Source of the DNA: Alphaproteobacteria bacterium PA4
GTDB taxonomy: Bacteria; Pseudomonadota; Alphaproteobacteria; Sphingomonadales; Sphingomonadaceae
DNA: 32,521 bases
Direction of reading: 5' to 3'
Assembly: GCA_002256005.1 (NCBI GenBank)
Contig: NKIQ01000031.1
Coordinates: 1 to 32,521, forward strand
Below, in pieces: positions 8,468 to 26,330 of this stretch. The first letter of the stretch is position 1; the number at the start of each line of letters is the position of its first letter. Below the pieces are notes generated by a model. That model searched no databases. It was not told the origin of the DNA and saw nothing but the letters and a program-made list of their open reading frames with translations. Both the position numbers and the translations under genes were made by a program.

Positions 8468-8493
8468 CCCCCCGGCATCCCGCCCGCTACACG
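8464..8493 (+). promoter_or_regulatory. Candidate promoter of glyQ
   Basis: TTGACC (8464-8469), overlapping the stop of the cytochrome gene, and TACACG (8488-8493) are spaced by 18 bases. Transcription would begin near 8500. An ATG at 8496 is out of frame with glyQ and closes after 25 codons. Confidence 0.45.
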
Positions 8494-8527
8494 CCATGCC
8501 ATTGTTGCACCTGCGAAAGAGCCTGTC

Positions 8528-9394
8528 CTGTCTGCCCCGCCGACCTCCCTGTCCTTTCAGGACATCATCCTGACGCTCCAGCGCTATTGGGGCGCGCAGG
8601 GCTGCGCGCTGTTGCAACCCTATGATGTGGAAATGGGCGCCGGCACCTTCCACCCGGCGACGACGCTGCGCGCGCTGGGGCCGGAGCGCTGGAACGCTGC
8701 CTTCGTGCAGCCGAGCCGGCGGCCGTCGGACGGGCGCTATGGCAACAATCCCAATCGCTTGCAGCACTATTATCAGTTCCAGGTGATCCTCAAGCCCTCG
8801 CCCGACGATCTCATCGATCTCTATCTCGGCTCCCTCGACGCCATCGGCATCGATCGCCATGTCCATGACATCCGCTTTGTCGAGGATGATTGGGAATCCC
8901 CGACCCTGGGCGCCTGGGGGCTGGGCTGGGAAGTCTGGTGCGACGGCATGGAGGTGACGCAATTCACCTATTTTCAACAGGTTGGCGGCCATGATTGCGC
9001 GCCTGTGGCCGGCGAGCTGACCTATGGTCTGGAGCGCCTCGCCATGTATGTGCAGGGAGTCGAGAATGTCTACGACCTGCGCTACAACGATGCCGGCGTC
9101 TCCTATGGCGATGTCTTCCTGAAGAACGAGCAGCAGTTCAGCGCCTATAACTTCGAACATGCCAATACCGAGCGTTTGTTCCAGCATTTCAAGGATGTGT
9201 CGGAAGAATGCCGGGCGCTGGTCGCGGCCAATCTGCCGCTGCCGGCCTATGACCAGGCCATCAAGGCCAGCCATATCTTCAACCTGCTCAACGCCCGCGG
9301 CGTCATTTCGGTGGCGGAGCGCCAGGCCTATATCGGCCGGGTGCGCGACCTGGTGAAGGGCGTCGCCGATATCTGGGTGGAGCAGGCGGCATGA
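8528..9394 (+). CDS. glyQ: Glycyl-tRNA synthetase alpha subunit
   Basis: About 288 residues. It is the catalytic subunit that adenylates glycine and charges tRNA-Gly, working as an alpha2-beta2 complex with GlyS. The conserved body is clear: [81 protein letters not shown] and [12 protein letters not shown]. The start is the problem. The frame is open from the TGA at 8465-8467, but before the conserved [18 protein letters not shown] segment it has no ATG, GTG or TTG. The first TTG, at 8612, would delete that segment. CTG at 8528 follows AAAGAG by six bases and gives the family N-terminus, so I chose it. CTG 8549 or ATT 8501 are alternatives. Confidence 0.88.
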
Positions 9395-9409
9395 GCACCA
9401 GTTTCACTT

Positions 9410-9448
9410 CCCTCCCCCTTGCGGGGAGGGCGACTCTGCGCCAGCAGA
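9410..9448. repeat. Palindromic repeat, double hairpin, between glyQ and glyS
   Basis: CCCTCCCC (9410-9417) pairs with GGGGAGGG (9423-9430). A second hairpin, CTCTGC with GCAGAG, follows at about 9434-9448, then a GGGGTGGGGG tail. The stem followed by a GGGGTGGGG-like tail is shared with the copy inside glyS. Confidence 0.65.
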
Positions 9449-9509
9449 GCGGGGTGGGGGTTGCCGCCTTCGCCGTGATGTGTGCTGCCGGGGAAAACCC
9501 TCCCCCCAA

Positions 9510-9532
9510 CCCCCTCCCTGAGAGGGAGGGGG
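9510..9532. repeat. Palindromic repeat carrying the glyS ribosome binding site
   Basis: CCCCCTCCCT (9510-9519) pairs with AGGGAGGGGG (9523-9532), a 10-bp stem with a three-base loop. The purine-rich right arm runs directly into AG-CC-GTG and is the only Shine-Dalgarno available to glyS. Confidence 0.7.
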
Positions 9533-9536
9533 AGCC

Positions 9537-11474
9537 GTGAGCGATTTTCTGCTTGAACTCGCCAGCGAGGAAATCCCGGCGCGGATGCAGGCGGCGGCCG
9601 CCGAGCAGCTGCGCACGCGCTTCGTCGAGAGCTGCAAGGCCGCGGGCCTCGCTCATGGCGAGGTCATTGCCGATGCGACACCGCGCCGGCTGTGGCTGAT
9701 CGCCCGCACCGTCGCCGCCGCCAGCGCCGCGACGCGCGAGGAGCGCAAGGGCCCGGCCGCGACCGCGCCCGACGCCGCCATCGCCGGATTCCTGCGCTCC
9801 ACCGGCCTCAGCCGCGAGCAGCTGGAAGAGCGGCAGACACCGAAGGGCGTGGTGCTGTTCGCCCATATCGACACGCCGGGCCGCAGCGCCGAAGCGATCC
9901 TCGCCGAACTGGTGCCGACCATCGTCCGCGATTTCCAATGGCCGAAATCGATGCGCTGGGGTGCCGCTTCGGCCAGCGCCGGCGCCCCGCGCTGGGTGCG
10001 GCCGCTGACCGGCATCATCGCGCTGCTTGGCGACGCTGTGGTGCCGTGTGAAGCGCTGGGTATCACGGCGGGCCGCGAGACGCGCGGCCATCGCATCCAC
10101 GCACCGCAGCCGCTGCGCATCGACAGCGCCAGCAGCTACGCGGCGCAACTGCGGGCGGCGCATGTCATCGTGGCCTCGGCGGACCGGCGCGCGGCGATTG
10201 CCGATGGCGCCGCGGCCGTGGCGGCGGCGGCCGGCCTGTCGGTTATTCCCGATATGGGCCTGGTGGCGGAAAATGCCGGGCTGACCGAATGGCCGGTGCC
10301 GATGCTCGGCCGCTTCGATCCGGCGTTTCTCGCCGTGCCGCGCGAGGTCATCCAGCTGACCATGCGCACCAACCAGAAATATTTCGCCTGTGCGGACGCT
10401 GGCGGCGCGCTCGCCCCGGCCTTCATCTGCGTCGCCAATCTGGTGGCCAGCGACGGCGGCACGGCGATCGTCGCCGGCAATGAACGCGTGCTCAGCGCGC
10501 GGCTGTCGGACGCGAAATTCTTCTGGGATCAGGATCTGGCGACGGTCGCCGCCGGCGGGCTGGAGGCGTTCCTGCCCAAGCTCGACGCCATCGTGTTTCA
10601 CGAGAAGCTCGGCACGGTCGCCGACAAGGTGGAGCGCGTGGCAAAGCTGGCGCGCTGGCTGGTGGAATCGGGCGCCATTCTCCCCTCCCCTTCAGGGGAG
10701 GGGTCGGGGGTGGGGCCGCTGTCTCAGGACGGCGTAGTGGCACTGGCGGATAAGTTGGATACGCTTTTCAGCTTTTTCGTCGAAGGCATGTTGCCTACTG
10801 GATCGCGCGACCCATTCGCGCTTCGGCGCGCAGCTCTCGGCATTCTTGCTTTGTTGGTAGATGGCGGCCATCGCGTTGATATCGAGGCACTCTATAGAAA
10901 CTGGGTCGCAATCGCTGGGCGTGATTGGCAGGCATCTTCAAGCGCTCTGGAACTTGTTCGCGACTTCTTCGCCGACCGCCTCAAAGTCCAGCAACGCGAA
11001 GCCGGCGTTCGCCACGACCTCATCGACGCCGTGTTCGCGCTCGGTGGTGAGGATGATCTCGTCCGCCTGCTCGCCCGCGTTCGCGCGTTGCAGGCGGTGC
11101 TGGCCACCGAGGATGGCACCAATTTGCTCGCCGGGGTGAAGCGCGCCGCCAATATCCTGCGCATCGAGGAGGCCAAGGACGGCGTCGTGTTCGACGGCGC
11201 CACCGATCCGGCGCTGTTCAGCGAAGCCGCCGAAACCGCGCTCGGCCAGGCGCTCGATGCCGCCGTGCCGGCGATTGCGACGGCGGTGGCGGCCGAGGAT
11301 TTCACCGCGGCGATGGCGGCGCTGGCCGGGTTGCGGCCGGCGGTCGACGCGTTCTTCGATGGCGTGATCGTCAATGCGGCCGACCCCGCAGTGCGGACAA
11401 ACCGGCTGGGGTTGTTGGCGCGGTTGCGCGGCGCGGCGAATAGCGTGGCGGATTTTTCGAAGGTCGAGGGATGA
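9537..11474 (+). CDS. glyS: Glycyl-tRNA synthetase beta subunit, with an apparent internal replacement
   Basis: 645 residues from GTG 9537; the family is usually close to 690-700. GlyS binds tRNA and supports GlyQ. The N-terminal part (FLLELASEEIPARM, IPDMGLVAENAGLTEWP, LTMRTNQKYFA, GNERVLSARLSDAKFFWDQD) and the C-terminal part (TGSRDPFALRRAALGIL and the tail ending at residue 645) are normal. Between ARWLVE (about 372-377) and VALADKLDTL (about 401-410) are only some 23 residues, partly read from a palindromic repeat (GAILPSPSGEGSGVGPLSQDG). Relatives have about 75-80 residues there, including a conserved KADLVT-MV-EFPELQG block that is absent here. The next 82 codons (10725-10970) have unusually A/T-rich third positions. 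The frame is intact, so it may be an active but altered protein, or it may be impaired. Confidence 0.9.
   Translation: MSDFLLELASEEIPARMQAAAAEQLRTRFVESCKAAGLAHGEVIADATPRRLWLIARTVAAASAATREERKGPAATAPDAAIAGFLRSTGLSREQLEERQTPKGVVLFAHIDTPGRSAEAILAELVPTIVRDFQWPKSMRWGAASASAGAPRWVRPLTGIIALLGDAVVPCEALGITAGRETRGHRIHAPQPLRIDSASSYAAQLRAAHVIVASADRRAAIADGAAAVAAAAGLSVIPDMGLVAENAGLTEWPVPMLGRFDPAFLAVPREVIQLTMRTNQKYFACADAGGALAPAFICVANLVASDGGTAIVAGNERVLSARLSDAKFFWDQDLATVAAGGLEAFLPKLDAIVFHEKLGTVADKVERVAKLARWLVESGAILPSPSGEGSGVGPLSQDGVVALADKLDTLFSFFVEGMLPTGSRDPFALRRAALGILALLVDGGHRVDIEALYRNWVAIAGRDWQASSSALELVRDFFADRLKVQQREAGVRHDLIDAVFALGGEDDLVRLLARVRALQAVLATEDGTNLLAGVKRAANILRIEEAKDGVVFDGATDPALFSEAAETALGQALDAAVPAIATAVAAEDFTAAMAALAGLRPAVDAFFDGVIVNAADPAVRTNRLGLLARLRGAANSVADFSKVEG
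10682..10715. repeat. Palindromic repeat inside the glyS coding sequence
   Basis: CCCCTCCCCT (10682-10691) pairs exactly with AGGGGAGGGG (10694-10703) around a two-base loop, followed by TCGGGGGTGGGG. This is the same stem-plus-tail pattern as the intergenic copies. It is translated in frame as part of glyS. Confidence 0.8.
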
Positions 11475-11516: not shown

Positions 11517-14183
<2,667 letters not shown>

Positions 14184-20057: not shown

Positions 20058-20183
20058 AGCCTCCGGCGGCTGGGGCCGACGGCCCCAGACCCCATCTGTT
20101 GGCGCGGCCCAGGGGCAACTCCAAATCTTGTTGTGGTAAAATCGATTGGGGTCTGGGGCCGTCGGCCCCAGCCGCCGGAGGCT
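20058..20183. repeat. Long inverted repeat, element A copy 1
   Basis: Two perfect 37-base arms (20058-20094 and 20147-20183) in inverted orientation are separated by 52 bases. The arms begin AGCCTCCGGCGGCTGGGG, and each contains its own small palindrome, GGGGCC-GAC-GGCCCC. A second copy lies at 25809-25924. The element follows btuD and precedes the mccB promoter; it could terminate transcription but has no T tract. No open frame is carried. Confidence 0.85.
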
Positions 20184-20241
20184 TTGTTGCCTATCCGCGA
20201 ATCATCGTCATCGGGATCTGGTATGACTTGAGCCCGCTCAC

Positions 20242-25808: not shown

Positions 25809-25924
25809 GCCTCCGGCGGCTGGGGCCTTGGTCCCCAGACCCCATTCGATTGGTGCGCGTGTGGCCACGCGAGGACCGAACCAACAATCGGGGTCTGGGG
25901 CCCAAGGCCCCAGCCGCCGGAGGC
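25809..25924. repeat. Long inverted repeat, element A copy 2
   Basis: 35-base arms (25809-25843 and 25890-25924) match in inverted orientation at 34 of 35 positions. They share the CCTCCGGCGGCTGGGG outer part and the CCCAGACCCC inner part with the copy at 20058-20183. The 46-base loop can fold further (TTGGT/ACCAA and CGCGTG/CACGCG). The right arm ends GGAGGC and supplies a Shine-Dalgarno for the next gene. Confidence 0.85.
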
Positions 25925-25928
25925 TGAC

Positions 25929-26330
25929 CTGCATCGCCGCACGCTGCTCGCCGCCAGCCTGGCGGCGCTGCTGCCAATCCCGGCCGTCGCGGCAACAACG
26001 CAGGTCGAGGAATGGACCTTCCTGCGCTCGCTCGATCCCGATCCGGCCGATCTGATTGCGTTCATTCGGGCCAATTGGTTCGCCATGGATCGCGTCGCGG
26101 TCGCGCAAGGGCTGTTCACCCATTATGCGCTGTATCGCAGCGATGATGGCGGGGACTGGAACGTAGCGGTCGTCGTCGGCTATCCGCAGGCGCAGGGCTA
26201 TGCCGGTGTGCGCGCGGCGTTCGAGGCGATCCGCGCCGCGCACGTGCCGGTGCTGGTCAAGGGCAAGGATTTGAAGGCGCTGGGCCGCATCATCGGCACG
26301 CGCAGCGTCACCCCGCTGGCGCCGCGTTGA
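25929..26330 (+). CDS. Small secreted protein, unknown
   Basis: 133 residues if translation begins at CTG 25929, five bases after the GGAGG at the end of the inverted repeat. That start gives a clean signal peptide: (M)HRRTLLAASLAALLPIPAVAA. An in-frame ATG at 25788 would add 47 residues read from the repeat, which would spoil the signal. The mature part has FIRANWFAMDRVAVAQGLFTHYALY, WNVAVVVGYPQAQGY and FEAIRAAHVPVLVKGKDLKALGRI; I do not recognise the family. The strong sequence character suggests a real gene whose original start was probably altered when the repeat arrived. Its 3' end overlaps the convergent fusion gene by 23 bases. Confidence 0.65.
   Translation: MHRRTLLAASLAALLPIPAVAATTQVEEWTFLRSLDPDPADLIAFIRANWFAMDRVAVAQGLFTHYALYRSDDGGDWNVAVVVGYPQAQGYAGVRAAFEAIRAAHVPVLVKGKDLKALGRIIGTRSVTPLAPR

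Follow-up and report, generated by a model that had tools for sequence, protein, structure and literature searches.

The glyS gene of Alphaproteobacteria bacterium PA4, which encodes the beta subunit of glycyl-tRNA synthetase (GlyRS), probably combines three separate features in its HD domain: a palindrome in a loop, an exchanged cassette, and an in-frame deletion that is not a settled trait. The three are kept apart because, among relatives, low GC3 occurs without the repeat and repeats occur together with the block that is missing here. Judging from the comparisons below, the repeat and the cassette are common in the order Sphingomonadales, but the deletion is not. The DNA analyzed (the window, 32,521 nucleotides) is one whole contig, C3, of a draft genome (G000) that comprises 53 contigs and 2,997,121 bases and is 96.41% complete.

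How could the three features have come together? In the reading that we favor, three things are to be distinguished. First, comparison shows that a permissive loop after LVESGA has received a REP/BIME-like palindromic element in frame; a loop that tolerates inserts would explain why the reading frame runs through palindromes there, much as it runs through the RPE inserts of Rickettsia proteins. Second, comparison shows that the stretch from VALADK to FFADRLKV is exchanged as one unit, and this replacement would account for the foreign-looking codons; the simplest route would be homologous recombination between its conserved edges and incoming DNA. Third, in this assembly alone, the DNA lying between the midpoint of the palindromic element and the cassette's left edge is missing in frame.

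Table 1. Features discussed in the text, with their positions in the window.
Feature	Positions	Strand	Basis or remark
glyQ, GlyRS alpha subunit	8528..9394	+	NF006827, 493.9 bits (cut-off 369); TIGR00388, 463.5 bits (cut-off 361.45)
Two-armed palindromic element (REP/BIME-like), glyQ-glyS intergenic, both arms	9410..9536		arms at 9411 and 9513
glyS, GlyRS beta subunit, 645 aa, GTG start	9537..11474	+	TIGR00211, 611.4 bits (cut-off 300); PF02092
In-frame palindrome with 10-bp arms, HD-domain loop after LVESGA	10682..10703		interpreted as the left half of an element with two arms
Left-arm tail (GGGGGTGGGG, 10706-10715) plus 18 unassigned bases (10716-10733), no right arm after	10704..10733	+	comparison with L051 and two-armed elements elsewhere in this genome
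Deletion junction, ~53 residues net gone (block CKADLV..EFPEVQG..DHYKPVG..VSVA and the preceding stretch)	10716..10737	+	comparison with congeners that lack a loop insert
VALADK, conserved left edge of the cassette	10737..10754	+	codon identity drops just past the motif in seven close pairs
Exchangeable low-GC3 HD-domain cassette, hypervariable core after DPFALRRAALG	10755..10964	+	sequence comparison
DALR anticodon-binding region of glyS	11133..11423	+	PF05746, residues 533-629, 25.1 bits (cut-off 22.3)
ppdK, pyruvate phosphate dikinase, neighbor	11517..14183	+	TIGR01828, 1352 bits (cut-off 843.45)

The glyS locus and the genomes compared

The gene belongs with the beta subunits of bacterial GlyRS of the (alpha-beta)2 type (PF02092, TIGR00211; 7eiv, 7yse, 7lu4), with which it shares the N-terminal domains, the start of the HD domain, the DALR region, and the adjoining glyQ. 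It passes the cut-offs of both families (480.5 bits against 29.2 for PF02092), and its best structure matches include the GlyRS chains 7yse_C, 7lu4_B, and 7eiv_D. On the other hand, its HD domain is not complete: the part with the CCA-contacting block is absent, and the ~53 residues lacking include those that would match Lys394, Gln409, and Tyr434 of E. coli. In the adjoining glyQ, no in-frame ATG, GTG, or TTG lies ahead of the conserved N-terminus (LSFQDIIL...) in 8468-8612; the first is a TTG at 8612, within the conserved N-terminus, and the start codon may be the CTG at 8528 or another unusual codon. The order glyQ-glyS-ppdK is common to the window and a Sphingomonas record. That record, the Sphingomonas parapaucimobilis "plasmid" NZ_CP155756.1 (L200), also carries dnaK, purB, and the gene for ribosomal protein L25; despite its plasmid label, it may represent part of a chromosome or a secondary chromosome.

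Genomes were sampled at one per species. The family survey matched the HD region in 195 of 199 genomes (G000 included); in three of the other four (G052, G058, and G132) glyS is cut at contig ends, and in G129 none was found. G033, G064, G075, G125, G130, G181, and G185 (E-values of 1e-43 to 1e-47) were left out of the family counts; survey figures hold among the matches listed. Within the genus, glyS was matched in 23 of 24 genomes, G000 included and G023 being the one without a match, and G016, whose glyS is split over contigs, was left out of the genus reading. Sixty GlyS stretches were fetched, one of which (L183) had no readable frame. Our main comparison covered 156 GlyS proteins, namely the window, 123 Sphingomonadales, and 32 other alphaproteobacteria, after the removal of L033 and L034 (copies of G010 and G008) and of L014, L019, L088, and L092 (cut at contig ends); L045 and L048, titled "Proteobacteria bacterium", were placed in the Sphingomonadales by resemblance. 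The 123 Sphingomonadales include G214 and exclude the window in the GC3, loop, and block counts, and include the window and exclude G214 in the core-similarity and tree counts. The tree is a FastTree of one protein, GlyS outside the tested segment.

A palindromic element in the HD-domain loop

A preliminary description of this DNA had noted a palindrome in frame within glyS, and we found it there as CCCCTCCCCT-TC-AGGGGAGGGG, followed by GGGGGTGGGG. This is its only exact copy within the window. The same genome, however, holds a whole family: the draft contains 113 places with the core CTCCCCN5GGGGAG, compared with 1 for the reversed control. Among the 50 core places listed of the 113, there were 15 pairs ~100 bases apart, four of which were inspected; two-armed elements lie at L125, L133, L135, and L137. 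The related intergenic element just ahead of glyS has both arms (predicted fold of 9400-9545, -78.7 kcal/mol), and the L051 loop has an element of the window's kind in which two arms are present. By comparison with these, we read the glyS palindrome as the left half of a two-armed element. In a search for other in-gene palindromes beside missing blocks, the six open reading frames scanned that overlap other copies of the palindrome gave no Pfam match, a result limited to these six.

The family resembles REP/BIME elements in its palindromes of opposite orientation ~100 bases apart. It differs in that the window copy is placed inside a tRNA synthetase gene. A second likeness is to the palindromic elements of Rickettsia (RPE), hairpin-forming repeats which, according to PMC2229807, occur in frame within protein genes and also between genes. 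The window element, likewise, is found in a conserved enzyme and between genes, and the glyS loop element stands in frame within a conserved protein with empty sites in relatives. Unlike the RPE case, several unrelated repeat families (by eye, in the inserts of 28 relatives) land in one loop of one gene, and the window keeps only half an element, beside a deletion.

Loop inserts are widespread in the order. The loop is longer than 45 residues in 51 of the 123 Sphingomonadales, compared with none of the 32 other alphaproteobacteria. Perfect inverted repeats of 10 bp or longer were present in 34 of these 51 inserts, compared with 2 of 51 shuffled ones, and six of the inserts had no inverted repeat of 6 bp or more. 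The presence or absence of an insert changed 34 times on the tree (mean of 60 shuffles 39.2, least 30), which indicates that the insert comes and goes often. Relatives with a repeat in the loop keep the block that the window lacks. Elsewhere in the window, a different repeat is found at both 20059-20198 and 25809-25940; it contains the inverted-repeat parts GGGGCC..GGCCCC and GCCTCCGGCGGCTGGGG and corresponds to direct-repeat families D3 and D6.

A low-GC3 cassette replaced between conserved edges

The earlier count of codons ending in A or T in 10725-10970 (36 of 82, with one AGA) is exact, against 83 of 563 in the rest of glyS (Fisher p = 7e-9); in any 82-codon run clear of this stretch, the maximum was 15. 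This drop in GC3 extends well beyond the window. Among the 123 Sphingomonadales, its mean was 0.164, with values above 0.1 in 78 and zero or negative in 16; the window's own drop, 0.365, was equalled or exceeded in 12 of the 123. The drop was 0.256 in sequences with a core of at least 80 residues (n = 55), compared with 0.089 in those with a shorter core (n = 68). GC3 falls at the same site in congeners that have the intact block and lack the palindrome; in others, such as G009, G019, G021, and G014, it is ~0.8 there, with no drop. The low-GC3 run is thus ruled out as a signature of the deletion, since relatives with an intact block have it.

The cassette starts just past VALADK, holds the PTGSRDPFALRR motif, which by mapping would contain stem-contacting residues, and ends before FFADRLKV. 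We compared codons in seven close pairs (flank identity 0.91-0.97), chosen because their cores differ. Codon identity falls just past VALADK, runs at 0.24-0.83 until FFADRLKV with its minimum in the core, and is again 0.78-0.94 at FFADRLKV. The edges are blurred in two pairs: in L015/L021, identity is already 0.69 just ahead of VALADK, and in L165/L166, there is a second dip to 0.62-0.72 some 12-28 residues past FFADRLKV. Similarly, codon identity between the window and G013 is ~0.8 before the segment and 0.23-0.78 inside it, with recovery only ~12 residues past the start of FFADRLKV. Because nucleotides are replaced inside conserved motifs as well, whole-stretch exchange fits better than local insertion alone. 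These codon comparisons show the segment behaving as a unit of replacement, and homologous recombination through the edges would be the likely route. The suggestion of a segment of different origin therefore stands insofar as the segment behaves as exchanged DNA; it is not, however, peculiar to this gene.

Does the core follow kinship? Cores were similar above the 99% null in 9 of 27 pairs at flank identities of at least 0.90, in 15 of 57 at 0.85-0.90, in 36 of 182 at 0.80-0.85, and in 238 of 714 at 0.75-0.80, in a test that is cruder for short cores. Core similarity thus shows no rise with kinship from a flank identity of 0.75 upward and is lower (0.09-0.15) below 0.65. In the window's genus, similar cores were found in 24 of 190 pairs. 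Long and short cores alternate on the tree as in shuffles (40 changes, against a mean of 40.5 and a least of 33 in 60 shuffles). A five-way typing gave 28 changes against the shuffles' 35.1 (least 32), which indicates that cores keep some kinship signal and that types cluster somewhat; the types S40, HAW54, VSE54, and DAGRD55 are regular expressions of our own, and 86 of the 123 sequences fall into "other". The window core is closest to that of Sphingomonas psychrolutea L047 (18 of 44 identical, score 69; next best 36), whereas against the nearest congener, G013, it scores 23, below the 99% null of 33, though the flanks are 85% identical. A few short core types recur across genera (L143, L150, L190, and L198; L057, L063, L067, L075, L153, L161, L191, and L193), and in some of these genera, other sampled members carry different types.

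In the AlphaFold prediction for L034, an intact congener, the core has pLDDT mostly below 50 at 529-562, which fits a floppy surface extension. The cassette recalls those of pilins and surface antigens, which are hypervariable, recombining gene segments: it, too, has conserved edges, an interior replaced as a unit, and low GC. It differs in lying in a cytoplasmic translation enzyme and in that silent copies were not found in the draft genome, where searches with PF02092 and a congener's GlyS (E up to 10) matched only the glyS locus. Phage, plasmid, and viral sources of the cassette were considered and rejected. Fifteen phage and 36 plasmid records match GlyS, with identities below 60% among the matches listed (10 of each); the best plasmid match is a glyQ-glyS-ppdK locus among housekeeping genes, and viral contigs gave 11 pattern-matching stretches, none of which encodes a relative. 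Among the open-licence papers that we searched, none seemed, from its title and abstract opening, to deal with a hypervariable GlyS or with in-gene palindromic repeats in this order.

Aminoacyl-tRNA synthetases are normally treated as slowly evolving. Here, a segment of ~50 to 150 residues lies beside the part that binds the acceptor stem, and its core often has no detectable similarity between species 90-97% identical elsewhere in GlyS; such a hypervariable segment would signal an unseen force on translation. What could keep so many versions? Our guess is selection exerted through a GlyRS-directed inhibitor or a partner; more simply, a floppy surface segment may turn over neutrally. A broader proposal, which we offer only tentatively, is that the HD segment of Sphingomonadales GlyS is a trans-species polymorphic module whose non-homologous, low-GC versions are swapped via conserved edges and are probably kept diverse by a factor acting against particular versions (a phage or competitor GlyRS inhibitor, or a partner protein). 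The window would then represent an exchange with a faulty left end at the palindrome, which left a GlyRS without its CCA-contact block.

The missing block

The absence of a conserved block, reported in the preliminary description, is borne out by the profiles and by the alignment to relatives. PF02092 covers the window GlyS at profile positions 1-370 and 439-535, with a hole at 371-438, and TIGR00211 likewise matches in two stretches, the better of which ends at profile position 373. The block is present in all 21 aligned congeners, and among the 156 GlyS proteins, the window is the only one without it. In 151 of the 156, CKADLV to VALADK spans 59 residues; the exceptions are the window (17), L071 (52), L079 (53), G214 (62), and L102 (63). 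From HEKLG to DPFA, the window has 70 residues, compared with 123 in most congeners whose loop has no insert (G011 has 125), in agreement with the earlier estimate of 50-55 residues lost at the repeat with the frame intact. The short protein noted before is also real as assembled, congeners having 680-826 residues (counted from the match start, with 19 of 21 readable to a stop). The gap opens within the half palindromic element and closes where the cassette begins on its left side.

Numbered as in L009, the protein has lost the near-invariant positions within 391-436, and 443 and 446 are changed; among 154 relatives, K396 and Q411 are kept in all and Y436 in 152. Two studies of E. coli GlyRS describe Thr406 and Gln409 as contacting C74 of tRNA-Gly (PMC9908026) and Lys394 and Tyr434 as lining a conserved HD cavity, in which mutating some residues altered charging and not glycine activation (PMC8464048); both propose the cavity as an antibiotic target. 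With a constant offset of 2, we infer that Lys394, Gln409, and Tyr434 correspond to K396, Q411, and Y436 of L009, and Asp456, Lys457, and Asp459 would by the same offset correspond to D458, K459, and D461. Loss of the block would then remove positions matching tRNA-touching residues. AlphaFold predicts five helices at the block site in L034 (382 to 431). Its model of the window protein has none there: a helix ending at 378 is followed directly by one that starts at 397. The window and L034 models have a mean pLDDT of 91.9 and 90.0 and a pTM of 0.66 and 0.81, respectively. If the block loss is real, it asks how much of the HD domain a GlyRS needs.

Is the deletion a settled trait? Outside the block, all 158 near-invariant positions are unchanged in the window GlyS, including the remaining HD-cavity residues (positions 367, 458, 459, and 461 of L009, and also K364). 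The dN/dS against G013 is 0.148 and 0.144 on the two sides, and this normal-looking purifying selection, together with the 158 conserved positions, rules out decay of the gene. The suggested search for a backup enzyme turned up no second glyS in the draft genome (with PF02092 and the GlyS of an intact congener), and for single-chain GlyRS (TIGR00389), it gave one match, on contig C47, with 19.7 bits against a cut-off of 243.3. The kept positions, the normal selection, the backup not found, and the block present in all relatives read argue against a long-standing deletion, and we infer that it is not a settled trait of the lineage.

We see two main explanations: a defect of the assembly or consensus at the hairpin, to which we give roughly an even chance, and a very recent real deletion after a hairpin-provoked break, perhaps during cassette exchange, whose chances we put a little short of even. 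That a hairpin of this sort can interrupt an assembly is suggested by contig C83 of G081 (L121), which stops within the palindromic element of the glyS loop. Several points favor a real deletion: the frame is preserved, as would happen in an artefact ~1 time in 3; glyS lies on both sides of the junction in the right order; the assembly passes other hairpins of the family, one of them 1.2 kb upstream of the junction; no specific assembly mechanism that skips unique sequence could be named; and the mean pLDDT of the shortened protein is high, although its pTM is lower than that of the intact congener. Palindromes are described as break points in bacteria (PMC3315005, PMC4245961).

One alternative, overlapping with the real deletion, is a working GlyRS without the CCA-end-contacting part of its HD domain; the block would have gone at the repeat, and what is left of the beta subunit would serve the lineage for charging tRNA-Gly. 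The open frame, the undecayed remainder under purifying selection on both sides, the sole glyS in the draft with no single-chain enzyme over the cut-off, and the confident structure prediction are all consistent with it. We nevertheless consider it unlikely: every other GlyS of the 156 has the block, the residues that would match those contacting C74 or lining the cavity are kept almost without exception, and a long life without the block should have let the remaining cavity residues drift, which none did.

Less likely still is the single event originally proposed, in which recombination at the repeat would have taken out the block and introduced the foreign segment in one step. The deletion does end at, or a few codons from, VALADK, the left edge of the cassette, and the window core resembles that of L047 and not that of G013. 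The part of the proposal in which the repeat brought the segment in is not supported, however, since relatives with the block, some of them without any repeat, show replacement between the same edges, and repeat-bearing relatives keep the block. A single event is not needed, and the coincidence of the edges is its only link. A second, full GlyRS absent from the assembly, with this glyS a dispensable or decaying copy, is very improbable: the draft state of the genome leaves room for it, but neither another glyS, nor the block, nor a dimeric GlyRS above the cut-off turned up in the searches of the draft, and the gene is otherwise conserved and lies between glyQ and ppdK in an order that a Sphingomonas record shares.

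One further glyS deserves mention. In G214 (L120), a single-contig genome of the same family, the whole GlyS HD domain (YFEGLGTYQEKQERI... to ...LLIDRLKV) looks foreign by eye, as though derived from a distant lineage, and gave a weak match in the HD-region survey (E = 3.1e-25); it sits between N- and C-terminal GlyS parts that are typical of sphingomonads.
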